DNA of 64,000 nucleotides from an uncultured Erythrobacter sp. (GTDB lineage Bacteria > Pseudomonadota > Alphaproteobacteria > Sphingomonadales > Sphingomonadaceae), in assembly GCF_947502395.1 (NCBI RefSeq), contig NZ_CANMZM010000002.1, forward strand, positions 1 to 64,000. The letters are read 5' to 3'. The position numbers were made by a program, and so were the translations under genes. Positions 17,038 to 53,879 of the stretch are shown piece after piece. Below the pieces are notes generated by a model. The model worked only from the letters and a program-made list of their open reading frames with translations. It did not search any database and was not told the DNA's origin. Every line of letters starts with the position of its first letter. The stretch's first letter is position 1.

Positions 17038-17049
17038 TTGTCCGGACAA
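17038..17049. promoter_or_regulatory. Operator TTGTCCGGACAA, site 1
   Basis: A perfect 12-base palindrome about 40 bases upstream of the secreted-protein gene at 17089. The same word recurs at six other promoter positions across the next 37 kb, which marks this as the first unit of the regulon. Confidence 0.75.
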
Positions 17050-17088
17050 CTCTTCCCAATCAGGCAGGAGGCGCGTAGGTTAATGCCC

Positions 17089-17712
17089 ATGTCAAAGCTC
17101 TCAACAATGATCGCAATTGGGCTCGCAGTAATAGCGCACCCGACCCTAGCCAATGACACCATCCCTGCTGGGATCTGGACCAATACCGAGGATGCTTACT
17201 TCGCCGAAGAAGAAGGTCGCGAGAAGGCCGATTGGGTTGGGATCGAAGTCGGTGAGGATGGCCAATGGCGGATGATCGACGCCTTCGGCGCATCCAAGAG
17301 CGTTTGGTCTTCCGAACCCATACCAAACTTGTCACCGCGTGCAGGAGGCGGCTGGCAGATCGGAGCAAGCGAACTTCGCAAGGCTCGCGCAATGTCCTGC
17401 TGGGTCTCGGTCAAGAAGTTTGCTGGCAAACCCAACGGCGATGCCGACTGGGCCTTTGCAAACAAACTCAAGATCTTTGATCAAGGCGGGCGAGTGCTGG
17501 TTGCCGGTGAAGGCGTGGCACCCGATGTCACTATCCGGGTGCGCAATGTCACTTGGGCACGTGGGAGCCGCAACAAACCCTCGCTGGTTCTTTACATTCA
17601 CAAACAGGACCCAGTCCGAGCAGAGAGTTATTCTTGGGCTGCGCCCGACGCCGATCTGATCGGCGTAAACCTTCGCTGGGTCCAAGCAAGTTGTAGCCGG
17701 GAGGAAAGCTGA
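17089..17712 (+). CDS. Secreted protein of unknown function
   Basis: About 207 residues starting at the ATG at 17089, with an AGGT box eight bases upstream; an ATG at 17083 is an alternative. The N-terminus (MSKLSTMIAIGLAVIAHPTLAN) is a signal peptide, so the protein is periplasmic or exported. No enzyme motif is recognised. It contains WIGxEVGEDGQW-like beta strands, and two Cys (about residue 105 and near the C-terminus) could form a disulfide. It is the first gene after operator site 1 and is followed within a few bases by a quinone-oxidoreductase gene. Confidence 0.65.
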   Translation: MSKLSTMIAIGLAVIAHPTLANDTIPAGIWTNTEDAYFAEEEGREKADWVGIEVGEDGQWRMIDAFGASKSVWSSEPIPNLSPRAGGGWQIGASELRKARAMSCWVSVKKFAGKPNGDADWAFANKLKIFDQGGRVLVAGEGVAPDVTIRVRNVTWARGSRNKPSLVLYIHKQDPVRAESYSWAAPDADLIGVNLRWVQASCSREES

Positions 17713-17715
17713 ACC

Positions 17716-18693
17716 ATGCAATCAACACGCGCAATATTTATTGAGACCGGCGGGCCTGAGGTCATCGAGTGGATCACTGAAGAGCACCCTGCTCCTGCTC
17801 CGGGTGAAGTCACTATCGAACACCGCGCGGTGGGTCTCAACTACATCGACACCTATCACCGGCGCGGGATCTATCCGGTCGCTTTGCCCAGCGGGATGGG
17901 GCTTGAGGCAGCAGGGCGGATCGTCGCTCTTGGTGAAGGAGTTGAAGGCTTCAAAGAAGGCGACCGGGTGGCGACGTTTGGGCCACTCTTGGGGGCCTAT
18001 TCCACGCATCGCAACATTGGTGCAGAGCACCTGTTCCTTTTGCCCGACTCGATCGATGATCAAACGGCAGCTGCGGCAATATTGAAAGCCTGCACTACCG
18101 AATACCTCGTAGAGCGTTGCGGGAAGGTCGAGGCCGGATGGCCAGTGCTTGTCCATGCAGCAGCGGGTGCCACCGGGCTGCTACTGGTCCAGTGGCTGCA
18201 TCATATAGGAGCCGAAGTGATAGGCACGGTTTCTACCGACGCGAAGGCTAAAGCCGCCCGCACGGCTGGGGCAGATCATATAATCTTCTATAAAGAAGAA
18301 GACACTGCCGCGCGAACGAGAGAAATCACGGGCGGGAAAGGTGTTCGTGTTACCTTTGATGGAATCGGCAAATCAGCATGGGAAACTTCGCTTGATGCAA
18401 CTGGACAGCGTGGATTAATTATCAATTTCGGTAATGTTAACGCACCAATCGGCGAGATTGATGTTGGCGTTTTGGCGCTCAAAGGCTCGCTCTACAACAC
18501 GCGACCGATGCTGTTCCATTACTACGAAGATCCGGTGGAGCGCGCCGCAGGAGCCGCTCGGGTCTGGGACATGTTCGACAACGGCGCACTGTCTGTGACT
18601 ATTGGGCAGACCTACGCATTGTCCGATGCAGCCCAAGCACACCGCGATCTGCAAGCGGGCAAGACGACTGGCTCGACCGTACTCCTGCCATGA
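17716..18693 (+). CDS. Zinc-free NADPH:quinone oxidoreductase (MDR superfamily)
   Basis: The 325-residue protein is a medium-chain dehydrogenase/reductase of the quinone oxidoreductase type, lacking the zinc ligands of alcohol dehydrogenases. The N-terminal GroES-like domain has GLNYIDTYHRRGIYPVALP, and the nucleotide-binding segment is VHAAAGATGLLLVQ (about 145-158). Such enzymes reduce quinones or enones with NADPH. It starts three bases after the secreted-protein gene and overlaps the next gene by ATGA, so it belongs to the operon behind operator site 1. Confidence 0.9.
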   Translation: MQSTRAIFIETGGPEVIEWITEEHPAPAPGEVTIEHRAVGLNYIDTYHRRGIYPVALPSGMGLEAAGRIVALGEGVEGFKEGDRVATFGPLLGAYSTHRNIGAEHLFLLPDSIDDQTAAAAILKACTTEYLVERCGKVEAGWPVLVHAAAGATGLLLVQWLHHIGAEVIGTVSTDAKAKAARTAGADHIIFYKEEDTAARTREITGGKGVRVTFDGIGKSAWETSLDATGQRGLIINFGNVNAPIGEIDVGVLALKGSLYNTRPMLFHYYEDPVERAAGAARVWDMFDNGALSVTIGQTYALSDAAQAHRDLQAGKTTGSTVLLP

Positions 18694-19289
18694 GCAGGAT
18701 TGCCCCTATGCAGGTCGAGGACCTGCCGCCCGCCACCCGCGAAGCGCTGACCTATGCGCAAGGGATCATGGGATTTGCGCCCAATGATGTGCTGACGATG
18801 GCGCATTGGCCCGAACTGCTCGAGGCGATGGAGCGGTTGGTCCAAACGATCTACAAACCCGGTGCATTAGACCCTGTGCTCAAGCGACTAATTGCGACGA
18901 TCACCAGCGGGGCGGCGGGATGTCGATATTGCCAGGCGCACACCGCGCATGGTGCTGTCCAGATGGCCGGAGGGGAGCGGAACAAAATCGCCAAGGTATG
19001 GGAGTATTCTACCGACCCTGCATTTTCGGATGCGGAGCGTGCCGCGCTGGACCTTGCTTTGGCCGCCGGGTCGCAGCCCAATGCAGCAACTGATGACCAT
19101 TTCCGAGAGCTTGAGAAGCATTTCTCCAAACAGGAAATCATGGAGATCATGGGGGTGATCAGTCTATTTGGCTTCCTCAATCGCTGGAACGACACGCTAG
19201 CCACAGAGCTGGAGGACAAGCCTCTAGACTTCGCAAGCTCAACCTATTCAAGCGATGTGTGGGAGCCCGGCCGGCACCGGCGCAGTTAG
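18690..19289 (+). CDS. Carboxymuconolactone decarboxylase/AhpD-like protein
   Basis: A 199-residue alpha-helical protein of the CMD family. The redox-type Cys pair is CRYC, followed by QAHTAHGA with the typical His, near residues 72-82. Family members with this motif act as alkylhydroperoxidases (peroxidase-related proteins); those without it are lactone decarboxylases, so a peroxidase or thiol-redox role is more likely. It ends the short plus-strand operon; its stop codon overlaps the stop of the convergent YciI gene. Confidence 0.85.
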   Translation: MSRIAPMQVEDLPPATREALTYAQGIMGFAPNDVLTMAHWPELLEAMERLVQTIYKPGALDPVLKRLIATITSGAAGCRYCQAHTAHGAVQMAGGERNKIAKVWEYSTDPAFSDAERAALDLALAAGSQPNAATDDHFRELEKHFSKQEIMEIMGVISLFGFLNRWNDTLATELEDKPLDFASSTYSSDVWEPGRHRRS

Positions 19290-19591
19290 CTTTTCCAGGC
19301 GGCCCCGCCAACCCAATCACCTGCGACGCCGAGGAAGTGGTCGACCTTGATTTCATCCCATACCCCAGCAGCAAAGTAGGGATCGTTTTCAAAGGTTTGG
19401 CGCGCATCGGCTTCATCCTCGGCCTTGATGATCAGCAGGGAACCAACGGTTTTTTCGCCATCCTTTAGCGGACCTGCGACCGCAATCTTCTCCAGAACCG
19501 TTTCAACATACGCAAGATGATCCGCAAGAAGGCGTTCGCGCAGGCTCGCTCCATTGGCACCATCACGGCATAGAAATGCAAACAAGGTCAT
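19286..19591 (-). CDS. YciI-like dimeric alpha/beta-barrel protein
   Basis: 101 residues with the YciI pattern: an early catalytic-type RDG, then ERLLADHLAYVETVL with the conserved His, and a C-terminal region PYFAAGVWDEIKV. YciI proteins are small enzymes or dehalogenase-like folds, often linked to aromatic or lactone catabolism. It is the last gene of the long minus-strand operon starting at 29053 and overlaps the preceding gene by ATGA. Confidence 0.8.
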   Translation of the reverse strand: MTLFAFLCRDGANGASLRERLLADHLAYVETVLEKIAVAGPLKDGEKTVGSLLIIKAEDEADARQTFENDPYFAAGVWDEIKVDHFLGVAGDWVGGAAWKS

Positions 19592-20355
19592 TCAGAGCTC
19601 TCCTGTGGCGGGGTGAAGACCGATGCATCAATCGGGTCGCCGATGGTTATTTTCTCCCAAGATACCACATTGTTGATTACACCATCGTACAACAAGGTAA
19701 CGGAGCGGGCCTGCACCCATCCGCTTTCGGGTAACCGAACAAAATCATCGTAAATGCGCTCATGAAAGCCGCGTGGGCTGTCGAAGGCCATATAGCGGAC
19801 AAAACCGCTTTCACCGTCAAATCCAAAAAGCGTTTCCTGACCTCCAGGATCGGTGATGCGCACGATGGAAACGCTGTGGCCAGCAATGGTGCGCGGCGGC
19901 ACAAAGCTGAGCGCGAAGCCTTCATCGAGCGCTGAACGAATGATCCCAAAGCCGAAATTGTTCGCCCAATAGGCGTCGGCTTGGTCTTTGGGCATGATGC
20001 CGTTCTGGGTCCAAGTGGTCTCACCATTATAGCCGACCTCGAACAGGGTTCGCCCCCCGTCTTTGGCAACGATCCGAACCTTGCCATCTGCGCCGTGCGC
20101 GACCGTGCGTCCGCGTTCAAACTCGCGCCACATGCGGTAGTCGTCGGCGGTGGAGCTAACCGCTCCAGTGGCGGGGTCGAAGAAGGTTGCCATGCCTGAG
20201 AGTTGGAGCGTTTGCGGGTCGACAAATGTATCGCCGCCATGCGCTGTCAGTCCGCGCTCGATGACATCTCTTGGGGTAAGTGGGCTATCAGCCTTCACAG
20301 ATGCAGCGCTCAGCATGCAAAGCGCGAGAAGTGTCATGATCCAACGGGTTATCAT
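19588..20355 (-). CDS. Secreted LolA-like-fold protein of unknown function
   Basis: 255 residues with a clear signal peptide (MITRWIMTLLALCMLSAASVKAD). The mature protein begins with a helix typical of outer-membrane lipoprotein-sorting-like domains (DVIERGLTAHGG) and continues with many beta strands. It probably sits in the periplasm and may bind a hydrophobic ligand. It overlaps its neighbours on both sides by ATGA inside the 11-gene operon, so it is linked to the catabolic pathway. No catalytic motif was recognised. Confidence 0.65.
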   Translation of the reverse strand: MITRWIMTLLALCMLSAASVKADSPLTPRDVIERGLTAHGGDTFVDPQTLQLSGMATFFDPATGAVSSTADDYRMWREFERGRTVAHGADGKVRIVAKDGGRTLFEVGYNGETTWTQNGIMPKDQADAYWANNFGFGIIRSALDEGFALSFVPPRTIAGHSVSIVRITDPGGQETLFGFDGESGFVRYMAFDSPRGFHERIYDDFVRLPESGWVQARSVTLLYDGVINNVVSWEKITIGDPIDASVFTPPQESSE

Positions 20356-21254
20356 GCGCCCACCTCCACCAGTTCTAACAGTTCGCCGCCCGCACCAATC
20401 GTGGTCGCCGATCGTCTGCCCTGGTAGAGCGGTCCATCGCGCGCTGTCGGCGGGTTGATCCAGTCGACATCACAAGCGTCAAGATCGCGAACTGCCAAGG
20501 TGACCAGCGCATTGCCAGGTGGAAGGCAACCAGAATGGCGGAGCCTTTGGGTGGTCTGCGCAGGGTAATCATCCACCTCCACAATCGGCATTCGTTCATG
20601 TTGAACCATGGTGATCATCGTCTGCGTATCTGCTGGAAGGCCAAAGGCGTTGTTGATCATCGAATAGGGCAAAGTGTAGTCCGCCCCGCGCGTGAGGCCG
20701 ACCTTGTCACGGTACCATTCAACACTCGCATTTCGGTCCGGGGTCGCCAGAACGACAATGAAAATCCGGTCTATTGCTGATCCTGCTCGCGGCAAATCAG
20801 TCCCTGGCATATCGTTCAGCACTTGGTTCAAATAGACCATTTCGCGGCCTGTCCCGAGCACCTGCATCGGGATGAAGGCGGGCTCAATGTTCTCAAGCTT
20901 CTTGGGTGGGCCAACGATGTTGAAACCTGCCTTTTCGACCACCTGTGGCCAATGCCAAACATCTTCAACGGTGCACTCAAACGCCGCCCAGCCGTGGCTT
21001 CGCGTGGGGAGAAAGTCGGGATGATCCGCCTGCTCGACTAGGCGGAACCAGCACGGCTCTCCGCTCTTAGGTCGCAGCACAGCGTAAGGAGCGCCTGCAT
21101 TGCCTGCGCATCCCCAACTCGCGGCCAGATCATCCGGCAATGCGCCTTGCTCGACCACCTCAAGCCCAAGGCAATCGCGGTATCCGCGCAAGGCCGCTTC
21201 GAGATTGGGAACGGTTGAAAGCCCACCAAGGATCGTCCCGTGAGCGATGCTCAT
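20352..21254 (-). CDS. Two-module VOC (glyoxalase/dioxygenase fold) protein
   Basis: The 300-residue protein contains two vicinal-oxygen-chelate modules. The first starts at GGLSTVPNLEAALRGYRDCLGLEVVE and the second at RIFIVVLATPDRNASVEWYRDKVGL (about 160). Two-module VOC proteins include extradiol-type dioxygenases and lyases; the metal ligands were not firmly identified, so the reaction is unknown. It has ATGA overlaps on both sides in the operon. VOC proteins recur in this region at 43104, 59848 and 62596. Confidence 0.8.
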   Translation of the reverse strand: MSIAHGTILGGLSTVPNLEAALRGYRDCLGLEVVEQGALPDDLAASWGCAGNAGAPYAVLRPKSGEPCWFRLVEQADHPDFLPTRSHGWAAFECTVEDVWHWPQVVEKAGFNIVGPPKKLENIEPAFIPMQVLGTGREMVYLNQVLNDMPGTDLPRAGSAIDRIFIVVLATPDRNASVEWYRDKVGLTRGADYTLPYSMINNAFGLPADTQTMITMVQHERMPIVEVDDYPAQTTQRLRHSGCLPPGNALVTLAVRDLDACDVDWINPPTARDGPLYQGRRSATTIGAGGELLELVEVGA

Positions 21255-22027
21255 TGGCCGAACTCTGGCTTACGTTTCTCGACAAAGGCGGTGGTGCCTT
21301 CAAGGAAGTCAGCGCCTGTGAACGCCTCGCCAAATATTCGCAGCGTGTCTGCGTCATCGCCGCTTTGACCATCCAGAACGCGACGGACAAACTCCTTGGT
21401 TTCTCGGATCGAATGCGGGCTTGCGGCAAGCAGGGCGTTAGTGAGCATCTCAGGCGTATCGGTGATTTCTTCGATCAGACCAATCCGCTTGGCCTCCTCC
21501 GCATTGAGCAGCATGCCAGTATACAGCATCCGCTTTGCGTGACCCGGTCCGACCAGGTCAGTAAGCAGTTTCACGTCATGCAAGGGATACACAAGGCCAA
21601 GTTTTGCAGGCGTAATCCCAAAGCGCGCCTTTGCACCTGAAGCAACGCGAAGATCGCACGCCAAGGCAATACCGCAGCCACCTCCAATGCAATCCCCCTC
21701 CACCACGGCAACCGTCGGCAAGGGAAGCCGCGCCAGTTCAAACTGCACCCGATTGATCGCCGTCTGATTGCGGGCGCGCCAGTCAGCGTCGTCCTTGTTC
21801 GCGAGCAATTCGCTGATGTCAGCCCCTGCGCAAAACGCGCCGCCCGGTTTGGCCGAACGGATGACCAACACCCGCACCGCGTCGCTCTCGCATGCCTCGC
21901 TAAGCAAAGCAGGCATTGCCTCCCACATCATCATGTTGAACGCGTTGCGCTTGTCGGCGCGGTCAATCAGCAGGCTCGCAACCGGCCCGTCGATCTCAAG
22001 GCGTAGATTGTCGGTATTGAAGCTCAA
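21251..22027 (-). CDS. Enoyl-CoA hydratase/isomerase family protein
   Basis: The 258-residue crotonase-fold protein has the oxyanion-hole segments GGAFCAGADISEL (about 62-74) and GDCIGGGCGIALACDLRVAS (about 106-125), then FGITPAKLGLVYPL. Hydratase, isomerase or C-C hydrolase activity on a CoA thioester is expected. The start is a TTG overlapping the upstream stop as TTGA. It is a member of the operon with a PaaK-type CoA ligase that could supply its substrate. Confidence 0.88.
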   Translation of the reverse strand: MSFNTDNLRLEIDGPVASLLIDRADKRNAFNMMMWEAMPALLSEACESDAVRVLVIRSAKPGGAFCAGADISELLANKDDADWRARNQTAINRVQFELARLPLPTVAVVEGDCIGGGCGIALACDLRVASGAKARFGITPAKLGLVYPLHDVKLLTDLVGPGHAKRMLYTGMLLNAEEAKRIGLIEEITDTPEMLTNALLAASPHSIRETKEFVRRVLDGQSGDDADTLRIFGEAFTGADFLEGTTAFVEKRKPEFGQ

Positions 22028-22893
22028 GCTGGGTTCTCCGCCATAAAGTGATCGGCGATTGCCTTACGTGTCGTCACCCAAACCCCGTCATGCATGCGGA
22101 CATGTTTGAAGAACTCCTCAAGCGCCCAAATACGGCCCGGGCGACCGATAATCCGCAAATGGAGGCCCAAACTCATCATCTTAGGGTTCCCTTCCTCGCC
22201 CTCACGATAAGCTTGATCAAAATTCGCCTTGGCATAGTCGAGCCATTGGTGAGGCGTGAGCGCGGGATCGGTCCACATCTTCATGTCGTTGTTATCGAGT
22301 TGATAGGGTACGATGCACATAGGAGTGCCGGTCGTCTCACGGTCCCAGAAGGGCACGTCGCCGGAGTAGTCATCCATGTGATAGGTAAAGCCCTCTTCCT
22401 GCAAGAGTCGCCTTGTGTTGTCGGTCAGCAGATAGCGCGAGAGCCAGCCATAGGGCCGCACGCCGCATGTCTGCTCAATGCTAGTCACAGCTTTGCGGAT
22501 GAACTCGCGTTCCTGATCCTCGTCCATCTTGAATTGGTGCACCCAGCGCCAGCCATGGCTGACCGGCTCGTGGTCGAGTTCAACAATCGCCTCCGCAATC
22601 TCAGGATGGTTCTCAAGGCTCAGTGCGGCAACCGTCCAACTCGCCATGATGTCATAGCGTTTCAAGAGTTTGACGATCCGCGCAGCGCCCGCTTTGATGC
22701 CATAGAGGTAATTGGATTCATTGGAATAATTGCGAATCTTCGACTTCACAAAGACGCCAAGCTCATCGACGGGCTCCATCCCGCGATCGCCGCGCGCGAT
22801 GGTCATCTCGCTGCCTTCCTCGACATTGACCACGACGCTAAGGGCAAGCTTTGCCCCGCCCGGCAAATCCATGCGCTCTTCCACCAAAGGCAT
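22024..22893 (-). CDS. PuuE-like polysaccharide-deacetylase-fold amidohydrolase
   Basis: 289 residues of the NodB/CE4 fold, but with the pattern of the PuuE allantoinase branch: SHGWRWVHQFKMDEDQERE (about 91-109) followed by CGVRPYGWLSRYLLTDNTRRLLQEEGFTYHMDD. PuuE opens the hydantoin ring of allantoin without needing the usual zinc triad, so hydrolysis of a cyclic amide, imide or ureide is more likely than sugar deacetylation. Two further paralogues lie at 51291 and 52217. It overlaps the SDR gene by one base (TGATG). Confidence 0.8.
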   Translation of the reverse strand: MPLVEERMDLPGGAKLALSVVVNVEEGSEMTIARGDRGMEPVDELGVFVKSKIRNYSNESNYLYGIKAGAARIVKLLKRYDIMASWTVAALSLENHPEIAEAIVELDHEPVSHGWRWVHQFKMDEDQEREFIRKAVTSIEQTCGVRPYGWLSRYLLTDNTRRLLQEEGFTYHMDDYSGDVPFWDRETTGTPMCIVPYQLDNNDMKMWTDPALTPHQWLDYAKANFDQAYREGEEGNPKMMSLGLHLRIIGRPGRIWALEEFFKHVRMHDGVWVTTRKAIADHFMAENPA

Positions 22894-23699
22894 CAGTGCA
22901 TTTCCTCCCCGCCGCTCACATTGAGGGCCTCTCCGGTAACATAAAACGCTTCATCGCTAGCAAGCCAAAGGCATGCGGCCGCGGTGTCGCTCGGTAGGCC
23001 AGGCCTTCCCATTGGATTACGTGCACTCATATTGGTGAGGTAATCCTCAACGGTGTCGAAGCCGAGGAGCTTAGAAAAATAGTCATTCTGCTTGGCTCCC
23101 AGCCCAGTGGTCACATGGTTGGGGCAAATCGCATTGACGGTGATCCCATGCGCGCCAAGCTCAACTGCTGACGCGCGGGTCAAACCCACCATGCCGTGCT
23201 TTGACGAGACATAGGCGGGCAAATGCGGAAAGCCGGTTTTGGCCGCTTGACTAGCGATGTTGATGATCCGGCCACCTCGATCTCTTTCAACCATCGCGCG
23301 CGCCGCGGCTTGCGTGCAGTAGAATGCGCCGGACAGATTTACGCTTAGCACTTGGTCCCACTCATCTGCGGTATCGACTTCGAGCAAAGGCTTCATCTTG
23401 AAACCGATACCAGCGTTGTTGACGAAGACATCAACGCCGCCAAAAGCCTCAACCGTCGCCTCAATCAATCCAGTGCACTGATCAGCCTTGGAGACATCAC
23501 AAGCGAATGTCGCAACCTTGGCGCCGCGACCGTGAAGCTCTTGCGCAACAGCGTCTGCCTCGTCGTCAATGGCAAGGTCAGACACCACACAGTTCGCACC
23601 TTCATCGGCGAAGGCTTGCAAGATTCCCTGCCCCAGCCCTTTCTGTTTGCCAGAGCCAGTAACAACAATCGTCTTTCCGGAGAACTTGCCCACGATCAA
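22893..23699 (-). CDS. Short-chain dehydrogenase/reductase
   Basis: 268-residue classical SDR. The cofactor motif TGSGKQKGLGQGI is at about 15-27, VNNAGIGF at about 92-99, Ser in INIASQAA, and the catalytic YVSSK near 163. It should oxidise or reduce a hydroxyl/keto intermediate with NAD(P)(H). An AAGGAGG box precedes two possible starts, TTG at 23699 and GTG at 23693. It is followed by the PuuE-like gene with one-base overlap. Confidence 0.9.
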   Translation of the reverse strand: MIVGKFSGKTIVVTGSGKQKGLGQGILQAFADEGANCVVSDLAIDDEADAVAQELHGRGAKVATFACDVSKADQCTGLIEATVEAFGGVDVFVNNAGIGFKMKPLLEVDTADEWDQVLSVNLSGAFYCTQAAARAMVERDRGGRIINIASQAAKTGFPHLPAYVSSKHGMVGLTRASAVELGAHGITVNAICPNHVTTGLGAKQNDYFSKLLGFDTVEDYLTNMSARNPMGRPGLPSDTAAACLWLASDEAFYVTGEALNVSGGEEMH

Positions 23700-23708
23700 A
23701 GATCCTCC

Positions 23709-24017
23709 TTACAAATCTTCTGTCAGGATGAATTGCGGGCCGTCAGCATAGTCCTGAAACGGCGCGGCTTTGGCTTGAAATTCAGGGTCCGACACGTCGG
23801 CGATGAAGTCGTCCATATTGGTGATGTCGAGCACCTCGAAATAGGCATAAGGCGGCGGTGTATCGGGGTCTCCGAACAGTCCGGTTGCCTTGTGAATGGT
23901 AAAGCTGTTGACCGACGGCAGCGCGCTTGCGGTGGGCACATCCTTGGTCTTGGCCCATTCTTCATATTCGGCGATGTCAGTGCCAGCTTTGAGGTTGAAG
24001 GGTACGATTATTCTCAT
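23709..24017 (-). CDS. HapK-like (REDY) small alpha/beta-barrel protein
   Basis: 102 residues, beginning MRIIVPFNLKAGTDIAEYEEWA and containing PPPYAYFEVLDI, which resembles the REDY-like HapK family, a dimeric alpha/beta-barrel protein first noticed in a prodigiosin gene cluster. The biochemical role of HapK is not settled. The ATG at 24017 has a GGGAGAG box and overlaps the amidase stop. Its presence fits metabolism of a pyrrole-like or other aromatic ring but does not prove it. Confidence 0.65.
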   Translation of the reverse strand: MRIIVPFNLKAGTDIAEYEEWAKTKDVPTASALPSVNSFTIHKATGLFGDPDTPPPYAYFEVLDITNMDDFIADVSDPEFQAKAAPFQDYADGPQFILTEDL

Positions 24018-25171: not shown

Positions 25172-25179
25172 CGCGTCGC

Positions 25180-29053: not shown

Positions 29054-29094
29054 ACAGCGATCCTCTGCCTCGAGTTTGCAGATTGGAGATTGAG

Positions 29095-29847
29095 TTGGCC
29101 AACGCCGCCACGCCTCTGAAAAAGAAGACGCCTCGCTACATGCAAGTGGCTGGCGAGTTGCGCGAAGCAATCATCGGCGGCCGGTACGAGAATGGTCAGC
29201 CCTTCCCGACCGAAACCGCGCTGTGCCGTGAGTATGACGTGAGCCGCTTTACCGTGCGTGAGGCACTCAAGCGGCTTGAAATGGAAGGCCTTATATCGCG
29301 CAGACGTGGGTCTGGCACAACGGTTCAACCCGCCTCCGCACGAGGCGGCGCGCTTCATCAGCCGCTGTCCAATGTTGGCGAGCTTCTCCAATATGCCCGC
29401 GATAGCGAAGTCGTCTACAAAGAGATCGCCAATGACACGCTTCCTGCCGAAGTTGCCGAACAGATTGGCGAGGACACCAAGGGCAACTGGCGCAGCTTTC
29501 GCGGCACCCGTAGGCAGGCCGCCGATGCACCTCCCATCGCCGTCACCGACGCCTATTTCCATGAGAGCCTTGGCGGGGCCGTCGATCAGCTGGACTTGGC
29601 AGCGGGCACTTTGTTCAGCCAGATCGAACAATTGGCTGGCGTCACCATCGGCCGCGTCACGCAAGATATTCAGGCGATTGCTGCTGATGCTGAGACCGCC
29701 GATGCCTTGGGCATCGAAAAGGGTTCGCCCGTCTTGCGGATCATCCGCTGCTATCTCGATCCCGCCGGCAAAGTCTACGAGATTTCGGTCAGCCACCACC
29801 CAGGAGACCGGTTCGCCTACGCGATGCATATCGACCTGGACAGCTAA
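29095..29847 (+). CDS. GntR-family regulator, HutC subfamily (UTRA domain)
   Basis: About 250 residues from a TTG at 29095 preceded by TGGAG at six bases; a TTG at 29083 is less well spaced. The N-terminal winged helix reads YMQVAGELREAIIGGRYENG then CREYDVSRFTVREALKRLEMEGLISRR, typical GntR. The C-terminal domain (about 90-245) is UTRA, which binds a pathway metabolite. HutC-type operators have GT-N4-AC spacing, which the TTGTCCGGACAA sites at 17038, 34773, 34813, 39895, 40687, 40731 and 53868 share, so it is the best candidate local repressor. No such site was found in its own 41-base upstream region. Confidence 0.9.
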   Translation: MANAATPLKKKTPRYMQVAGELREAIIGGRYENGQPFPTETALCREYDVSRFTVREALKRLEMEGLISRRRGSGTTVQPASARGGALHQPLSNVGELLQYARDSEVVYKEIANDTLPAEVAEQIGEDTKGNWRSFRGTRRQAADAPPIAVTDAYFHESLGGAVDQLDLAAGTLFSQIEQLAGVTIGRVTQDIQAIAADAETADALGIEKGSPVLRIIRCYLDPAGKVYEISVSHHPGDRFAYAMHIDLDS

Positions 29848-30932: not shown

Positions 30933-30938
30933 AGTGCG

Positions 30939-32141: not shown

Positions 32142-32159
32142 CGCTCTGCCGCGCCCGGA

Positions 32160-33359: not shown

Positions 33360-33379
33360 TGTCTTAGTCCTCTAAAGTC

Positions 33380-43102: not shown

Positions 43103-43103
43103 G

Positions 43104-47000: not shown

Positions 47001-48200
47001 ATGGCGTTAGAGCTTGATCGAAGGCGGGCATTAGCCAGTTCCATTTTGACTGGTGGCCTTCTGGCTGCAATGGCAAGCGCGGCTCCGATTTCGGCTGTAA
47101 GGGGCCAAGAAAAGAGGGGAAAGCCGGAAGGCGAGAATATGAGCGACACCTCAACCTATTCAGCAATGGCGATGCAGCTGACCGCACGCTCGCTCGAACG
47201 CCTGCCGGATGCTGCAGCGGCGCGGGCGGCAATCTTGGAGCATATCGCGGAGATCGAAGGACAAATCCGCACCAGTTCGATCTTTGTCGCGCAATACTCT
47301 GGAAAGCCGGTGAAGCTGGTGGTGCTCCCGGAATATCTGTTCACCTCCTATCCCGGGCGTATCTCAATTGAGGACTTCGCCGCCCGTGTCGGCTTTGCTG
47401 CCAACGGCCCAGAGTACGAAGCACTCGGCGGTGTCGCCCAGCGTTTGGGAATGTTCCTTGCGGGCAACGCCTATGAGACCGACGGAGCCTTTCCCGGCTT
47501 CTATTTTCAGACCTGCTTTATCGTCGCGCCCTCGGGTGATGTGGTGCTGCGCTATCGCCGCCTGTTGTCGATGTTTGCGCCAAGCCCCCACGATGTCTGG
47601 GACGCCTATCTCGACAAATATGGGCTCGACGGGGTGTTCCCAGTCGCGCAGACCGAGATCGGCAACCTCGCCCCGATTGCCTCAGAGGAAATCCTCTATC
47701 CTGAGATTGCGCGCGCTCTGGCTCTGCGTGGTGCAGAGGTGTTTTGCCATTCGTCGAGCGAAGTCGGCTCACCCATCGCGACCAACAAGGACATCGCCAA
47801 ACAAGCGCGCGCGTTTGAAAACCTTGCCTATGTCGTCTCCTCCAACACCGCCGGGATTTCGGGGACCGCGATGCCGCTTTCAAGCGCGGAAGGAAACAGC
47901 CAGGTGGTCGATTGGAAAGGCCGCGTGGTGGCGCAAAGCGGCGACGGCGAAACCTTCACCGCATTCTCCACCATCGACCTTGGCGCGCTTCGCGAGGCTC
48001 GCCGCACCCCGGCGATGACCAACTACCTCGCCCGCCAGCGCCCCGCTCTGTTCGCTGAGGCCTATGCCGCAGCCGCTGAACCTTTTCGTGGTCCCAATGG
48101 GATGAGCGACGGAGGCACTCCCGCGATTCCCGACCGCGACTATTTCCGCCGCGCCCAAGCCGAAATCATTGAACGCCTTAGCAAGGCGGGAGTGATCTGA
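47001..48200 (+). CDS. Nitrilase-superfamily protein lacking the catalytic Cys
   Basis: 399 residues of the carbon-nitrogen hydrolase fold. The first catalytic Glu is kept (VVLPEYLF, Glu111). In the place of the catalytic Lys (YRK in amidases) the protein has YRRLL (Arg187), and where the Cys nucleophile should be it has IASEEILYPE, with Ser228. Both changes were read directly from the codons. The protein is either inactive, a Ser variant, or a binding/scaffold protein. The N-terminus (LDRRRALASSILTGGLLAAMASAAP) looks like a Tat signal; an internal ATG at 47139 with a GGAAGG-type box would give a cytoplasmic form. Confidence 0.82.
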   Translation: MALELDRRRALASSILTGGLLAAMASAAPISAVRGQEKRGKPEGENMSDTSTYSAMAMQLTARSLERLPDAAAARAAILEHIAEIEGQIRTSSIFVAQYSGKPVKLVVLPEYLFTSYPGRISIEDFAARVGFAANGPEYEALGGVAQRLGMFLAGNAYETDGAFPGFYFQTCFIVAPSGDVVLRYRRLLSMFAPSPHDVWDAYLDKYGLDGVFPVAQTEIGNLAPIASEEILYPEIARALALRGAEVFCHSSSEVGSPIATNKDIAKQARAFENLAYVVSSNTAGISGTAMPLSSAEGNSQVVDWKGRVVAQSGDGETFTAFSTIDLGALREARRTPAMTNYLARQRPALFAEAYAAAAEPFRGPNGMSDGGTPAIPDRDYFRRAQAEIIERLSKAGVI

Positions 48201-48922
48201 TGAAGCACCGTAATGTGCGTGGCAAAATTCGCTATTCCTCGATGAAACCGGGGATGGAGGGTCAGGAGCGCGGGCGCGAATGGTTCAACTTCTCGCACCA
48301 CGAAGATGGCTCAGTCATCATGAGCGCGCAGTGCGAGATTGAAGAGCCGGATCCCACGGTCCTTCGCAATATCACCTGTCACATTGGTCCTGATCGAAAG
48401 CCGCAGAACCTGTTGGTGCATTTGACCTTGGGCGATGAGTTCTTGGGTTCAGGCTGGATGCGCTTTGACCAAGCCTCCAATCAAATTGTGTGTGAGAGCT
48501 TTGGCCCCGGCATTGGGCGCAATTCAGAGACCCGCGAGGCAGTCGAGTTCGACGCCTTCGGTACGCACCCGGTTGTCGGCGACGGCTTCACCACCCGCCT
48601 GATGGATGTGAGCAAGGGCCCGCACAAAAGACGGCTCAGATTCTACCTCCCCTCCCCCGATCACCGCGGTGCAACCGCCCCGCAGATCGCCTACCTCGAA
48701 ATGACGATGGAATATGTTGGTGAGGTGGAAAAGACGGTCGAAGCGGGCACTTTCCAGTGTCGTCACTACCGCTATGTCGATGACAGCGATGACGGTATGG
48801 GCGGCACGCGCCACCCCGATATGAACATGTGGGTGACCGCCGATGACGATGCAATTCTCGTCTATTCAGCGATCGATGGGTATATGATGAACTGCTACGA
48901 GCTCGTCGAACTGGAGCGGTAA
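48200..48922 (+). CDS. Conserved protein of unknown function, 240 residues
   Basis: No family was recognised. The sequence is soluble, rich in aromatic residues and beta-type, with no signal peptide or membrane helix; notable segments are GREWFNFSHHEDGSVIMSA, LGSGWMRFDQ and CRHYRYVDDSDDGMGG. The pattern recalls lipocalin- or DUF3108-like barrels. The ATG overlaps the last base of the nitrilase-homologue stop (TGATG), so it belongs to the receptor operon. Its stop is one base from the stop of the convergent gene. Confidence 0.6.
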   Translation: MKHRNVRGKIRYSSMKPGMEGQERGREWFNFSHHEDGSVIMSAQCEIEEPDPTVLRNITCHIGPDRKPQNLLVHLTLGDEFLGSGWMRFDQASNQIVCESFGPGIGRNSETREAVEFDAFGTHPVVGDGFTTRLMDVSKGPHKRRLRFYLPSPDHRGATAPQIAYLEMTMEYVGEVEKTVEAGTFQCRHYRYVDDSDDGMGGTRHPDMNMWVTADDDAILVYSAIDGYMMNCYELVELER

Positions 48923-48923
48923 G

Positions 48924-49424
48924 TCAGCGCTCTATTTGTTCGACACCGTCCGCCGGAAATTCCGAAACAAAGGTGTTGTCGCCGACCTTGCCCACCATAT
49001 CTTCGCGAAGCGGTGCCTCTGGGTAGACCCGCACGCTGTAGTCGCCTGCACTGGGGTTTTGGCGCAAGGGTAAGATGGTTTCCTGATAGGTCTTGCTGTA
49101 CCAGAATGCGCGGGCGTTTTCGAGGCAGGGGAAGCGGACGTTCAAGGTGGTGTGGCGCGGATCCTCGGTCCCGTCAAATATCTCCAAAGTGCGCGGGATA
49201 TTGAGGTAATATCCGCCCAGTTCCTCGTAGATTTTGCTCTCTGCGATGGCGCGGGCGTATTGGCCCATGCGCTCGCGATCGAGGGTAAGGCCGGTGACGA
49301 CCATGATGACAGGTTGGTCACAGGTCGCTTGCGGCGGGGGTCCAGCACGCTCGGTCTCGCTCTGTGCCATTGCGGGCCCAGCCAAAAGCAGAACAACCGC
49401 TGCAAGGGCGCCAAATCTCATCAT
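48924..49424 (-). CDS. Secreted DUF1330-like protein
   Basis: 166 residues with a signal peptide (MMRFGALAAVVLLLAGPAMAQ). The mature part fits the DUF1330 dimeric alpha/beta barrel: VIMVVTGLTLDRERMGQYARAIAES, IYEELGGYYLN and RFPCLENARAFWYSKTYQETILPLR. The role is unknown. It is the last gene of the minus-strand operon starting at 53801 and overlaps the preceding gene by ATGA. Confidence 0.7.
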   Translation of the reverse strand: MMRFGALAAVVLLLAGPAMAQSETERAGPPPQATCDQPVIMVVTGLTLDRERMGQYARAIAESKIYEELGGYYLNIPRTLEIFDGTEDPRHTTLNVRFPCLENARAFWYSKTYQETILPLRQNPSAGDYSVRVYPEAPLREDMVGKVGDNTFVSEFPADGVEQIER

Positions 49425-49879
49425 CCCTCGATCCTTTTCTCATCGCACAAGGTACGCTTCCATGGCTCCTTGCCCTTAAACCACTGCCAAGTGCGCGCGC
49501 GGGTTTGCGCTTCCGGAAAGAGGCCAATCATTTCGACATAGCATGCGCCCGGGACATCCAAGCGGTCAAGCCGCAGCATGATCGTGTGTTCATGTGTCTG
49601 CCAGCCATAGCCGGAGAAGCGGTCGGTGTCCCAAATGAGGCGATCCCCAACAAGTTTTCCGCCGAACTCAACATGCATCTCGCGTCCATCGGCCCAATTG
49701 ATCCAATTGTGCTGTACGTAATACCATTCGCCCTCCTCCGGAAATTCGCAGCGGGTTTTGACGCGGCGTTCGTCCAGCAATTGGCCGTCCAGATCAATGT
49801 CACGATACCAGCCGTCCCAATACCCCTCGTGCAGCAGCATTGCGGGCATCGCCGCCTGCAAATCTGCACGGTGACCCAT
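49421..49879 (-). CDS. DUF3598/calycin-like protein (copy 1)
   Basis: About 152 residues. It resembles the protein at 55254-55763: both begin MxxLxxHEGxWDG and carry a W-rich beta pattern (NWINWADGREMHVEF, RLIWDTDRFSGYGWQ, RTWQWFKGKEPWKRTL). The fold looks like a small lipocalin-type barrel that could bind or act on a hydrophobic ligand. The ATG at 49879 overlaps the aldehyde-dehydrogenase stop by one base. Confidence 0.6.
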   Translation of the reverse strand: MGHRADLQAAMPAMLLHEGYWDGWYRDIDLDGQLLDERRVKTRCEFPEEGEWYYVQHNWINWADGREMHVEFGGKLVGDRLIWDTDRFSGYGWQTHEHTIMLRLDRLDVPGACYVEMIGLFPEAQTRARTWQWFKGKEPWKRTLCDEKRIEG

Positions 49880-51294
49880 CAACCTTGCCCTTCGCGGTAG
49901 GCGTCGATGGGGAGCGCTTGGCCGGTCTGCGCGATCATGGCTCTATGCCGAAGGAAGCGAAGGAGACCTTCATCGCCCATACGGCTCGGCCCAAGGCCAG
50001 AGGTTTTGCGCGAGTGGTTGGTCGCATCGTTGACCATGGTCGTTAGCGCTCCATCTTGAAGGCTAATTGCTCCTGCTTCAAGACACGCCCCGACCTGGAC
50101 AGCCTCCTCCAAAGAGCCAGCAAGCACAGCAGCAGACAAGCCATAAGTCGTATCATTTGCAAGCGCGATGGCTTGTTCAAGATCATCGCAGATCTTCACC
50201 GGCAGAACCGGTCCAAAGGTCTCGTCGCGCAGTACGGCCATATCCGGAGTTACGTCCGCGAGAACAGTGGGACGCAAATAGTTTGCGCCACCTAGCTGCT
50301 CCACTTTTCCACCAGTGAGAACTCGAGCACCTTGGGACACAGCCTCTTCGATCTGTGCCTGTACTTTGCCCGCTTGATCCGGGAAAATGAAGGGTCCGAT
50401 ATGGCCCTGTTTTGGATCGGGGTAAGTGATTTCGACTTGCTCTGCCGCTTCGACCAGAGCCGTCAGGAACGGCTCAGCAATCTCTCGTGCAACAAAGATG
50501 CGCTCAATCGACTGACAGGCTTGTCCAGTGGCCACGATTGAGGCGCGCAAGGCAACTCCGGCTGCCCAGTGCGGATCAGCGCTGGCGGTAACGATCATCG
50601 GGTCTTTGCCGCCAAGTTCGAGGTTCGCTGGGATGAGCTGCCGCGCAGCCGCCTCAGCCACTTTACGCCCGGTCGCGGTTGAGCCGGTGAAGCAGACGTA
50701 GTCGACCTCTTCGATCAGAGCCTGCCCCACCTCTGCACCGCCCATTACATAGGCGAGCGGCAATTCGGACACTTCTGCGAGCACCTCGCGCAACGGCTCA
50801 GAAAAGCGCGGGGTTACTTCGGATGGTTTCACCAAGGCCGCACAGCCCGCCATCAGTGCGGGAACCGCATCGATATGGCTGAGGATCACCGGGAAATTCC
50901 ACGGAGCGATTGCGCCAAACAGAGGATAGGCCGAATAGTCGGAGCGTATCTCAAAACCCGGTGTGGCGGAGGGTTTGCTTACGCGATCCAGCCCAACGAA
51001 TAGCTTCGGCCCAAGCTCGGCCCAACGACGAATATTGTTAGAAAGCGCCTCAACCTCAATCCAGGAGATAGCGTGGCGACCCGTGTCGACAGCGAGCGCC
51101 TCCGCGATCGGGCCTGCCGCCGCATCGACGGCATCGGCGAACTTGAGCATTACTGCAGCTCGACCCTCTGGACCGAGTGCCTCCCATGCGGGTTGCGCAT
51201 CTCTGAGGCGCGTGGCCTCTGACGCTATCTCAGCTCGCGAATTGACCGCAAATTCGTAGTCCGCCTCGCCAGTGCGCGGGTTATGCGCTCTCAT
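49879..51294 (-). CDS. Aldehyde dehydrogenase
   Basis: About 471 residues of the NAD(P)-dependent aldehyde dehydrogenase superfamily. Family segments are GAIAPWNFPVILS, the nucleotide-binding FTGSTATGRKV, the Glu-containing NLELGGKDPMIV, the catalytic Cys in GQACQSIERIFV, and DETFGPVLPV. It would oxidise an aldehyde to an acid, for example a semialdehyde from a lyase step. The ATG at 51294 overlaps the deacetylase-like stop by ATGA. Confidence 0.93.
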   Translation of the reverse strand: MRAHNPRTGEADYEFAVNSRAEIASEATRLRDAQPAWEALGPEGRAAVMLKFADAVDAAAGPIAEALAVDTGRHAISWIEVEALSNNIRRWAELGPKLFVGLDRVSKPSATPGFEIRSDYSAYPLFGAIAPWNFPVILSHIDAVPALMAGCAALVKPSEVTPRFSEPLREVLAEVSELPLAYVMGGAEVGQALIEEVDYVCFTGSTATGRKVAEAAARQLIPANLELGGKDPMIVTASADPHWAAGVALRASIVATGQACQSIERIFVAREIAEPFLTALVEAAEQVEITYPDPKQGHIGPFIFPDQAGKVQAQIEEAVSQGARVLTGGKVEQLGGANYLRPTVLADVTPDMAVLRDETFGPVLPVKICDDLEQAIALANDTTYGLSAAVLAGSLEEAVQVGACLEAGAISLQDGALTTMVNDATNHSRKTSGLGPSRMGDEGLLRFLRHRAMIAQTGQALPIDAYREGQG

Positions 51295-52220
51295 TGTTGA
51301 GCTTCCCATTCGGCAACTATCTCCGCCCCCGGTGCAATCCACGCCTCAGCCTGATTGGCAAGGTCTGCGAGCAAATCTTCGAGTGCGCTAACTCGATAGG
51401 GTTGGCCGATGATGTAGGGTGTCAGGTGGATTGGTAGCATCCGTCCGCCACCTTTGGTGTAGGCCGTCCCTTTCGCCTCAGCGGCGAGCCAGTCAAAAGC
51501 ATCGCGCATCATCTGCGCCCAGCCTTGCGCTGAATGCTGCTGCGTTGCGATAATCATGCGGTCGGAGAGTTCGGTGTTGAGCGGCAGGTTGATCAGGCCG
51601 TTCCTGAAGCGATAGGGGAGCTCATCGTTCACCCAGTCGCAGGTGTAGGTTAGGCCATGCTCGGCGATCAAATCGGCGGTGCACCAGCTTTGCGAACGCG
51701 CGATTGAGTACCAGCCGTTCGGCTTAACCCCGCTCGCTGCCTCAAGCCGGGTAAGGCTATCCGAGATCAAAGCGCGCTCTTGCGCCTCTGGCAAATCCGA
51801 GGTGATCGTCCCGTTCATATCCGTTGAATGGGCGATAATCTCATGGCCATCGGCCAGCACCGCTTCGATCAGCTCAGGATAGCGCTCGGCCACAGCCGCA
51901 TTGGTCGCAAAGCTTGCTTTCACACCGGCGGCCTTAAACGCCTCCAGCATCCGCCACACGCCGACCCGATTGCCATAGTCGCGCACCGTGTAGTGGCGGT
52001 AATCGGGATAGGGCGTGACCATATGTCCCGGCGCGCGGAAGGGTGTGTCTTCGGGCGTTATCGGAAACCACTCAAGGCTGACGCACAGCCAGACCGCAAC
52101 CGATTTGCCCTCAGGCCAAGTGACCGACGCACGCTCATGCATGTTCGACCAGTCGTAAAACTCATGATCATAGCCTTCGCGGCGATGCGGATAGGTGGTG
52201 TAGTTGTCCGGAAGGCTCAT
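51291..52220 (-). CDS. PuuE-like NodB-fold amidohydrolase (second)
   Basis: About 309 residues from the ATG at 52220. WPEGKSVAVWLCVSLEWFP and DYGNRVGVWRMLEAFKAAGVKASFATN are the first strands of the deacetylase barrel. The metal-site region reads GHEIIAHSTDMNGTITSDLPEAQERAL, keeping one His of the usual pair, then GVKPNGWYSIARSQSWCTADLIAEHGLTYTCDWVNDELPY. This is the pattern of the PuuE/allantoinase-type branch, suggesting C-N rather than N-acetyl sugar hydrolysis. ATGA overlaps with both neighbours. Confidence 0.8.
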   Translation of the reverse strand: MSLPDNYTTYPHRREGYDHEFYDWSNMHERASVTWPEGKSVAVWLCVSLEWFPITPEDTPFRAPGHMVTPYPDYRHYTVRDYGNRVGVWRMLEAFKAAGVKASFATNAAVAERYPELIEAVLADGHEIIAHSTDMNGTITSDLPEAQERALISDSLTRLEAASGVKPNGWYSIARSQSWCTADLIAEHGLTYTCDWVNDELPYRFRNGLINLPLNTELSDRMIIATQQHSAQGWAQMMRDAFDWLAAEAKGTAYTKGGGRMLPIHLTPYIIGQPYRVSALEDLLADLANQAEAWIAPGAEIVAEWEAQQ

Positions 52221-53113
52221 TGGGCTGCCCTCCAATGGTCAACAATCTCGCCTGCTCGCGCCTTCCAGCAACGCGGATCGGCAGCGATATGGGCGAGCGC
52301 ATCTTCAAACGGGCCAATGCGGTGTGGCTGACCGATCAAATAGGCGTGCAACGGGATACACATAACCGTCCCAGAGCCGGTACGCTCGCCTTCCTCGGCA
52401 AGCCGCTCATACTGTTGGATCAGGCAATCGGCATATTCGCGGCCCGACATGCCATAGACGTTGAAGCCGTAGTGGTCGTTGACCTCTAAGCTATAGGGGA
52501 TCGAGGCGAGCTCGCCCCCGCCCCCTTTAGTCGCGACCTTCACCTCCTGCACTTGGTCATCGTGATACAGGTCGCAGGTGTAGGTGAAGCCATACTCAGC
52601 CAGCAGATCAAGCGTGCGCGGTGTGTGAGTCAGCGCAGGGGCAAGCCAGCCGCGAATGCGCTGTCCTGTGGCACGCCCCACCGTCGCAATCGAATCTTCG
52701 ATGATTGCGCGCTCTTGAGCCTCGGACATGCCGTAGGAATAGCGCGTGTTGTAAATGCCGTGGCTGAAGAACTCCCAACCTCGCTCTGCTCCATCAGCGA
52801 CAACCTCCGGGTGATGATCGCAAAGGGCCACCGACAGGCTGACCGAGCCCGGAAAGCCATGACGGCTCATCACATCGGCCATGCGCCAATGGCTCACCCG
52901 GTTTGAATGATCGCGGTAGGAATAGCCAACGACATCGGGATGCGCTTTGGACCAGGGTTTACGCTGCGGGTTCGCAGGCGGATCGATCTCGTAATACTCA
53001 AGATTGGGCGCGACCCACACCGCGCAAGTTTTGCCTTCAGGCCATGCGAGCTTTGGGCGGGCCCTATAGGGGGCATAGTCATAGAGTCCGGGATCAGGTG
53101 CACCTTCCTGCAT
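52217..53113 (-). CDS. PuuE-like NodB-fold amidohydrolase (third)
   Basis: About 298 residues from the ATG at 53113, four bases after the isochorismatase-like stop. It is paralogous to the next gene: WPEGKTCAVWVAPNLEYYE, DHSNRVSHWRMADVMSRHGFPGSVSLS, then FFSHGIYNTRYSYGMSEAQERAIIEDSI and RIRGWLAPALTHTPRTLDLLAEYGFTYTCDLYHDD. Only one His of the NodB His pair is present. A tandem pair could form a hetero-oligomer or handle two ring stereoisomers or intermediates. Confidence 0.8.
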   Translation of the reverse strand: MQEGAPDPGLYDYAPYRARPKLAWPEGKTCAVWVAPNLEYYEIDPPANPQRKPWSKAHPDVVGYSYRDHSNRVSHWRMADVMSRHGFPGSVSLSVALCDHHPEVVADGAERGWEFFSHGIYNTRYSYGMSEAQERAIIEDSIATVGRATGQRIRGWLAPALTHTPRTLDLLAEYGFTYTCDLYHDDQVQEVKVATKGGGGELASIPYSLEVNDHYGFNVYGMSGREYADCLIQQYERLAEEGERTGSGTVMCIPLHAYLIGQPHRIGPFEDALAHIAADPRCWKARAGEIVDHWRAAQ

Positions 53114-53117
53114 GGCC

Positions 53118-53801
53118 TTATCGCGCCTCCAGCCATTCAATCACCGCCTGCACCGGTTCCACATCGGCATATTTCAGCTGTAGGTCGGTGAGGTTGGCGA
53201 AATGATAGCTCTCATGCTTGTCGGCGCAGGTCTCAATCGGAACGATGGTGCGATAGCCATGGCTCAGTGAATCCACCGCCGTTGCCCGCACGCACCCGCT
53301 GGTCGAGCCGCCGGTCACAACCACGGTATCGACCTTGTGAAAGGTGAGATAGCTCGCGAGCGGGGTTTCAAAGAAAACGCTCGGCATCCGCTTGGTGAAT
53401 TGCAGGTCGTCAGGCTCAATCTCGCAGCGTGGGTCGAATTTGTGACGTTCAGATGCGTATTTGATGTTCTGCAAGCTGTCCTCAGTGTCGGTGCGCGTGC
53501 CCCAAACACCTGCATCGCCCGCGTCCTCTTTGTAGGCGACCCTGCTCCAGATCACCGGCACGCCCTTGGCGCGCGCGAGCCGGCTGATCGTGTTGATATA
53601 GTCGATCTGTTTAGGGTCGGTTTCGTAGGCGGTCTTAAACAGATCCGTGCGCGTATAGGCTTGTTGCACATCGACATTCACAATCGCGAGTTTTTCGCCG
53701 AAGCCGAATTTCCTGCGCGCCGGATTAGCCATGACCGCTTCGAAGAGCTCGCGCGCGGTCTTTCCCTCTTCAACCATTTTCGTGCCGACCAGATCGTTCA
53801 T
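53118..53801 (-). CDS. Isochorismatase-like cysteine amidohydrolase
   Basis: About 227 residues from the ATG at 53801 with a GAGGGCAG box; the open frame runs further upstream but through operator 7. The catalytic Asp (IVNVDVQQAYT), Lys (FTKRMPSVF) and Cys (STSGCVRATA) are all present with family spacing. N-carbamoylsarcosine amidohydrolase and maleamate amidohydrolase belong here, so release of ammonia from a half-amide or carbamoyl intermediate is likely. It heads the minus-strand operon read from operator 7. Confidence 0.88.
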   Translation of the reverse strand: MNDLVGTKMVEEGKTARELFEAVMANPARRKFGFGEKLAIVNVDVQQAYTRTDLFKTAYETDPKQIDYINTISRLARAKGVPVIWSRVAYKEDAGDAGVWGTRTDTEDSLQNIKYASERHKFDPRCEIEPDDLQFTKRMPSVFFETPLASYLTFHKVDTVVVTGGSTSGCVRATAVDSLSHGYRTIVPIETCADKHESYHFANLTDLQLKYADVEPVQAVIEWLEAR

Positions 53802-53867
53802 CCACTGCCCTCTCGATTCTGCTTTGACGCAAACAATAATCGCCCTTAGGAGGTTGTCGAGTAGAAT

Positions 53868-53879
53868 TTGTCCGGACAA
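53868..53879. promoter_or_regulatory. Operator TTGTCCGGACAA, site 7
   Basis: A perfect palindrome, extended on the left to ATTTGTCC, in the 91-base divergent region between the isochorismatase-like operon (minus) and the alpha/beta-hydrolase operon (plus). It ends 13 bases before the plus-strand ATG, next to its GGAGG box, so binding would block transcription start of both units. Confidence 0.8.

Follow-up and report, generated by a model that had tools for sequence, protein, structure and literature searches.

The distribution of a 12-base palindromic word, TTGTCCGGACAA, and of the genes around it was analyzed in a 64,000-nucleotide stretch of the genome of an uncultured Erythrobacter sp. 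(contig NZ_CANMZM010000002.1, positions 1 to 64,000; the whole stretch is called the window). The word recurs before nearly all operons of one gene cluster, in the middle of which a GntR/HutC-type regulator is encoded (29083..29847, + strand; GntR winged helix-turn-helix plus UTRA domain), the proposed cognate repressor. With up to two mismatches allowed, seven matches were found in the window: five exact, two with one mismatch and none with two. The exact copies lie at 17038..17049, about 33 bases 5' of the start of an exported-protein gene (~17083); at 34775..34786, within a 16-base palindrome (34773-34788), in a conserved promoter-like spacer of the intergenic region between a ripC-like and a DUF1838 gene; at 40690..40701, in the divergent promoter region of a membrane-protein gene and the TonB receptor 2 gene, and 42 bases from there at 40732..40743; and at 53868..53879, between an isochorismatase-type gene (-) and an alpha/beta hydrolase gene (+). 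The one-mismatch copies are ATGTCCGGACAA at 34814..34825, 39 bases from the 34775 site, and TTGTCCAGACAA at 39897..39908, before TonB receptor 1, a variant that recurs in several relatives. An eighth, exact copy lies past the window end, at C2:69138 (C2 is the contig of the window), 16 bases upstream of a gene (67907-69121) for a methyltransferase-like protein of 404 amino acids.

A sequence-only reading of this stretch had listed seven copies of the palindrome in a 40-kb regulon. All seven sites exist, but only five are exact; the coordinates given for 17038 and 53868 were right, whereas the other five have to be raised by 1-3 bases (at 34773 the longer, 16-base palindrome begins). The regulon itself is supported, but it spans 52 kb and has at least eight sites. 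The placement of the sites in intergenic promoter positions was borne out, at 13-115 bases upstream of plausible start codons. Three sites are overlapped by mechanically called open reading frames (ORFs) with upstream starts (17014, 34814, 53731); for those three, starts with an export-like N-terminus or a preceding ribosome-site-like stretch are found 3' of the sites. TTGTCCGGACAA is the sole perfect 12-base palindrome that recurs in the window: 19 different words account for 23 occurrences of such palindromes there, and five of these are copies of TTGTCCGGACAA. Shuffled windows contained 2.49 +/- 1.51 matches at up to two mismatches, compared with 7 in the real one, and 1 shuffle in 100 reached 7, a figure that looks weak because mismatches were allowed.

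Gene identities were taken from Pfam scans, and export-like N-termini were judged by eye. At the left edge of the cluster lies an Lrp/AsnC-type gene (16516-17010), followed behind the 17038 site by operon A (17083..19289, +; exported protein, quinone oxidoreductase-like protein, CMD-family protein). Operon B (19286..29053, -), which has no operator in this strain, encodes two MmgE/PrpD proteins, a PaaK-like ligase, an amidase, HapK-like, SDR and PuuE-like proteins, an enoyl-CoA (coenzyme A) hydratase, and VOC, exported and YCII proteins. On the other side of the regulator gene, operon C (29853..34752, -) contains a RipC-like C-C lyase, a MaoC/mesaconyl-CoA hydratase-like protein, an acyl-CoA dehydrogenase and two family III CoA-transferases, and operon D (34859..37246, +) a DUF1838 protein and a flavin amine-oxidase-type protein, both with an export-like N-terminus. 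TonB-dependent receptor 1 (37330..39813, -) and a membrane-protein-like gene (39947..40624, -; weak DUF2269 match, below cut-off) precede operon F (40817..48922, +), which encodes TonB receptor 2, a VOC protein, an MFS permease, an FAD_binding_4 oxidase, a CN-hydrolase and an unassigned protein. Operon G (48924..53801, -) holds an isochorismatase-type hydrolase, two PuuE-like proteins, an aldehyde dehydrogenase, a DUF3598-like barrel and a DUF1330 protein, and operon H (53893..60462, +) an alpha/beta hydrolase, another DUF3598-like barrel, a LeuC/LeuD-like hydratase, an HMGL-like lyase, a family III CoA-transferase and a VOC protein. The distal part of operon I (60459..64000, -) belongs to a same-strand run whose start, C2:69121, lies outside the window just behind the eighth operator. 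The run includes a CN-hydrolase and, likewise outside the window, a CpeT/CpcT-family protein (C2:64958-65659). Directly past the eighth operator, a transposase-like ORF (C2:69330-70079, IS6-like by eye) may mark the right border of the cluster.

Over the whole cluster, the genes encode two TonB receptors, two MFS permeases and several proteins with export-like N-termini. Also encoded are three PuuE/polysaccharide-deacetylase-type proteins, an amidase, the isochorismatase-type hydrolase, two CN-hydrolases and the aldehyde dehydrogenase. Further members are two MmgE/PrpD proteins, the LeuC/LeuD pair, three family III CoA-transferases, the acyl-CoA dehydrogenase and the MaoC/mesaconyl-CoA-hydratase-like protein. 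The lyases, ligase and other proteins are RipC-like, HMGL-like, PaaK-like, VOC-type (five), HapK-like, DUF1838, DUF3598-like and CpeT/CpcT-family members.

The word was then counted over the whole assembly (G000; 3,416,994 bases, 11 contigs). It has six exact copies, all in C2:17038-69138 (52 kb), and none outside the cluster in the 3.417-Mb genome; a rough uniform-placement figure for the chance of six copies clustering so is 8e-10. This genome-wide count, rather than the shuffle test on the window, is the decisive one. With up to one mismatch, 16 places were found for the operator word and 6 for its reversed control. The sequence-only reading had named, as evidence that would tell against a regulon, a motif that turns up often within genes or at the promoters of unrelated housekeeping genes. 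The scan did not refute the regulon: outside the cluster it returned zero exact copies and eight scattered one-mismatch copies, of which seven fall within ORFs of at least 120 amino acids (mechanical calling) and one, TTGTCTGGACAA at C3:942021, lies 25 bases before a 158-amino-acid ORF. In this genome the exact operators are therefore confined to the cluster of the regulator (6 of 6), and some relatives carry extra copies elsewhere.

The association of the word with the regulator was examined in 114 genomes of the genus. An ortholog of the GntR protein is present in 31 of them (best matches 54-100% identical), and all 31 contain the exact word, in 1-8 copies (172 in total, median 6), compared with 4 of the 83 genomes without the ortholog (Fisher p 6.7e-24, a figure which ignores shared ancestry). 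The reversed control word occurs in 13 of the 114 genomes, 4 with GntR and 9 without. Sixteen genomes belonging to other families of the order showed the same tendency. Seven of them have a GntR match of E 1e-20 or lower (30-39% identity), and six of these seven contain the exact word, with six copies in G026, four in G036 and a single copy in each of G027, G033, G037 and G039; none of the nine others contains it. In a scan of named genomes, 53 loci were matched; 11 partial-length matches (L113, L115-L124) were set aside and 42 clear relatives used (GntR 53-81% identical), from records under the names Erythrobacter, Altererythrobacter, Sphingorhabdus, Parasphingorhabdus, Sphingopyxis, Novosphingobium and other Sphingomonadaceae. 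The exact word is found in 38 of these 42 loci, and in 38 of the 39 that cover the stretch 0.7-6.2 kb downstream of gntR; each of 59 control palindromes with permuted half-sites occurs in 0 or 1 of the 42. Because word and gene come and go together across genomes, we name the 29083-29847 protein as regulator of the predicted operators, an assignment that these sequence comparisons strongly support. The link to a GntR-type protein suggested by the sequence-only reading is thus backed by the 114 genomes and the 42 loci, and also by the contact residues described below.

Not only the presence but also the position of the word is conserved. Sites precede orthologous operons in G004, G012, G101, G109, G116 and G126, also after rearrangement: in G109, two operons located about 65-80 kb from gntR still carry them. 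In G026, which belongs to another family and has a GntR protein 36% identical, five of the six exact sites precede genes homologous to those of the cluster (isochorismatase/PuuE-like, HMGL/CoA-transferase-like, LeuC-like, TonB/membrane-protein-like and u48200-like), and an additional one-mismatch site lies between the PrpD1-like and GntR genes. Operon B (PrpD/PaaK/PuuE1) has an operator near its start in some relatives. In 7 of the 42 loci, the 250 bases 5' of the gntR match contain a site with at most one mismatch, so that self-control of gntR may exist in some species. In these genome comparisons the Nit2 identity values were excluded (query out of frame, 9 stops), and the query starts for the genes at 17083, 34859 and 39813 were one to three codons off. 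The least conserved proteins of the cluster are the TonB receptors (37330-39813, 40817-43102), with mostly 26-40% identity in the six genomes named above and one exception each in G101 (65%) and G109 (76%), compared with 60-97% for most enzymes.

The structure of the operator was refined with 140 distinct sites, gathered at up to one mismatch, a procedure which biases the inner 12 positions and leaves the flanks unbiased. The flanks show A at -2 in 85%, A at -3 in 63% and T at -1 in 63% of the sites, which gives an extended operator of about A-A-[T/G]-TTGTCCGGACAA-[A/C]-T-T. With its conserved flanks, the operator therefore measures about 16-18 bases. The intergenic region of operons C and D was aligned for our own sequence and 11 others chosen from the 42 loci; 11 of the 12 sequences share TTCACAATTTGTCCGGACAAAT.TAAAGTCAA, and L104 differs outside the operator. 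In this shared block the operator occupies the 17-base spacer of a promoter-like hexamer pair (identified by consensus match only).

The regulator has a GntR winged helix-turn-helix domain at its N-terminus (PF00392, 74.6 bits, cut-off 27) and a UTRA effector domain at its C-terminus (PF07702, 72.4 bits, cut-off 23.8); its best match among solved structures is YvoA/NagR (1.1e-21), followed by DasR (2.3e-12). NagR is described, in an excerpt of PMC4333415, as contacting two guanines per half-site via Arg38 and Arg48, with a wing contact via Gly69. All 41 readable orthologs have Arg at the position matching Arg48 (helix D3), and 42 of 42 have Gly at that matching Gly69 (wing), whereas the position matching Arg38 is never Arg in the 41 readable orthologs (T in 19, S in 19, A in 2, N in 1). 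The half-site TTGT with its single G fits this protein, because Arg38 is replaced and Arg48 kept.

Several observations weigh against this regulatory scheme. Joint transfer of a single DNA segment could explain part of the co-occurrence. Four genomes lacking the GntR ortholog contain the exact word, in one copy each, and in one of them (G007) no cluster gene lies within the 20 kb examined around the copy; conversely, G038, outside the genus, has a GntR match and no exact word, and L102 covers the stretch downstream of gntR yet has no exact site. Some exact copies adjoin no recognised cluster gene: the sixth site of G026 (C342), two of the four sites of G036 (C408 and C550, short contigs) and the copy at C1:42055 of G126, around which 15 kb were examined. 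The locus of G006 (L137, C1:301866-304235), an apparent relic of a lost cluster, retains gntR and a single operator, together with one CoA-transferase gene and part of another, in the 40 kb examined. In our strain no 12-mer with fewer than five mismatches to the operator occurs in 28901-29250; gntR and the unit beginning at 29053, which the sequence-only reading had already set apart as the exception, thus have no recognisable site here, so that the scheme does not account for the regulator's own control. The residue match is a sign of consistency rather than proof, since GntR proteins without Arg38 may be common. A further exact word outside the cluster, at C10:1845774 of G109, has an ABH2-like gene (50% identical) about 0.7 kb away; this copy and that at C1:42055 of G126 are possible trans targets or chance occurrences.

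The sites, their confinement to the cluster, their co-occurrence with the gene, their conservation before orthologous operons and the residue fit were all obtained computationally. The explanation that we consider best, and highly probable as a whole, is that TTGTCCGGACAA is the operator of the GntR/HutC protein: a dimer would occupy the eight sites in or near the promoters of nine presumed transcription units and block them, a small molecule related to the pathway would bind the UTRA domain and release the repressor, and the 52-kb cluster, with its uptake, periplasmic and CoA-dependent steps, would thereby be switched on as a block. In this scheme we infer physical binding, repression rather than activation and induction by a metabolite. 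Repression is the most likely mode of action: release of a repressor by a small molecule is what the opening lines of abstracts describe for NagR and DasR, and it fits the positions of the sites.

There is a small chance that the GntR protein binds the sites and acts as an activator or a dual regulator. Paired sites occur at some units (34775/34814, with a distance of 39 bases, and 40690/40732, with 42), a layout that also suits activators or loop-forming regulators. However, the distance from a start codon to the nearest site is 13-83 bases, and where conservation is best the operator sits between the promoter-like hexamers, so that a bound dimer would block the polymerase; NagR and DasR, as relatives from the HutC group, are moreover called repressors in those abstracts. 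It is very improbable that the sites are recognised by another DNA-binding protein, such as the product of the Lrp/AsnC gene at 16516 or some regulator encoded elsewhere in the genome. An Lrp/AsnC gene adjoins the 17038 site here and in G004, and a protein 51-52% identical is encoded near the moved operons of G109, but this gene does not track the word as GntR does: at E 1e-45 it is matched in 7 of the 31 word-rich genomes and in 8 of the 83 others, and among the 114 genomes matches of at least 77% identity are restricted to G000, G004 and G064.

Instead of a protein operator, the palindrome might be a repeat element, a methylation or restriction word, or an RNA hairpin that travelled with a transferred segment. 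A perfect palindrome can serve as a restriction-methylation word or belong to a mobile repeat; the patchy occurrence of the cluster (31 of 114 genomes) and the transposase-like ORF just past the last site also speak for this reading. We nevertheless regard this as extremely improbable: the sites hold their position before orthologous operons even when these are rearranged, bases outside the 12-mer are conserved (above all A at -2), and confinement to one cluster would not be expected of a methylation word.

The GntR/HutC class and the layout, with one local regulator, many sites and one pathway, are of a known kind; the pathway around them is uncharacterised. NagR (YvoA) and DasR, with their dre-site operators, share the GntR winged helix-turn-helix and UTRA domains and a symmetric operator of a catabolic system. 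The operator described here is not of the dre type, as TTGT has one G where the NagR half-site has two consecutive ones and the Arg38 position is T, S, A or N; in addition, the cluster genes are unrelated to amino sugars and the exact sites are confined to one cluster here. AraR of B. subtilis has a GntR-type DNA-binding domain and reportedly an operator of the form ATTTGT...ACAAAT, like the present one, for which a literature search gave no confirmation; its effector domain is of LacI type, unlike the UTRA domain here, and it controls different genes. AraR retains just one of the two NagR arginines, as the present protein does, according to the same excerpt of PMC4333415. In searches of an open-licence library the operator word was found in one unrelated Drosophila paper only, and no recognisable description was found there of the cluster or of bilin or phycobilin breakdown by such bacteria.

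Known pathways resemble the cluster in part. Operon C recalls the itaconate genes ripB/ich and ripC/ccl, with matches to RipB/Ich (230.2 bits) and RipC/Ccl (214.9 bits) and CoA-transferases common to both, but these scores are under the curated equivalog cut-offs of 340 and 375, and the operon has an extra acyl-CoA dehydrogenase and a second CoA-transferase. In fungal nicotinate use, an excerpt of PMC9304392 describes the imidase HxnM, related to the PuuE/polysaccharide-deacetylase type, followed by the amidase HxnN. The cluster likewise combines PuuE-related imidase-like proteins with an amide hydrolase; it differs by having three PuuE-like proteins together with LeuCD/PrpD, CoA-transferases and lyases, and no nicotinate genes were recognised among the cluster proteins scanned. 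The PuuE allantoinase model (TIGR03212) gave equivalog scores of 245.2 and 112, under its cut-off of 424.6, for the two of the three PuuE-like proteins that were scanned.

Judged by their families, the imidase-like, amidase, LeuCD/PrpD, CoA-transferase and C-C-lyase genes suggest the catabolism of cyclic imides. As leading guess for the substrate we retain, tentatively, cyclic imides from linear tetrapyrroles; bilin-derived imides are a possible guess because CpeT is restricted to genomes with the GntR protein and because of a putative CpcS-like barrel fold. CpeT is present in 9 of the 114 genomes, all of them with GntR (9 of 31 compared with 0 of 83). The protein of C2:64958-65659 belongs to the CpeT/CpcT bilin lyase family (PF06206, 73.3 bits, cut-off 21) and may bind a bilin, and that of 55254-55763 is a putative calycin-type barrel with a CpcS-like match, which nitrobindins, a DUF3598 protein and BFA1 equal or surpass. 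Unlike the phycobiliprotein lyases CpeT/CpcT and CpcS/CpeS, the cluster members sit in a catabolic operon. In a joint and still doubtful reading, the regulon would give sphingomonads a complete aerobic pathway for the uptake and breakdown of linear tetrapyrroles, be they phycobilins or bilins of bilirubin-like or chlorophyll-derived type. These would be kept on the CpeT/CpcS-like barrels and cut to ring imides (alkyl maleimides, hematinic acid), which the three PuuE-type imidases would open; half-amidases would then release ammonia, LeuCD/PrpD would hydrate the dialkylmaleates, and RipC/HMGL-type lyases would cleave the CoA esters, with one HutC repressor, sensing an intermediate, switching on all steps.

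Probably the cluster degrades some other nitrogen heterocycle or amide compound, of pyridine, hydantoin or lactam type, and the barrels just carry a hydrophobic ligand. Of the solved structures, an N-carbamoylsarcosine amidohydrolase comes closest to the isochorismatase-type protein, the two PuuE-like proteins scanned score far under the allantoinase cut-off, and CpeT is absent from the examined methyltransferase operon in 7 of 10 genomes. Against this, LeuCD, PrpD, CoA-transferases and RipC/HMGL-like lyases imply, by their families, branched dicarboxylic acids and not amino acids, and CpeT is confined to genomes with the GntR protein. If the substrate is a bilin, the cluster would show how aerobic bacteria can fully consume nitrogen-rich pigments, for example those of cyanobacterial blooms. 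One word and one regulator mark the bounds of a pathway of about 50 kb, present at least partly in 31 of the 114 genomes, and the operator supplies an objective gene list for it, as well as a simple reporter for a search of the substrate by induction.

Related gene sets were also observed. A second GntR gene of G062 (37-38% identical; L171, C2:957001-977000) has a CpeT-family match and amine-oxidase/DUF1838-like genes in its vicinity, and the 20 kb examined contain no operator of the TTGTCCGGACAA type. In G012 (L131-L132, C1:1004000-1035000), a second similar gene set (DUF1838, PuuE-like, PrpD-like, Amdase-family) and a LysR-type gene (by eye) are joined to the cluster. Beyond the cluster in our own strain, C2:71209-91341 contains an ORF of 4501 amino acids near ORFs which resemble, by eye and from their N-termini, a type I secretion set.

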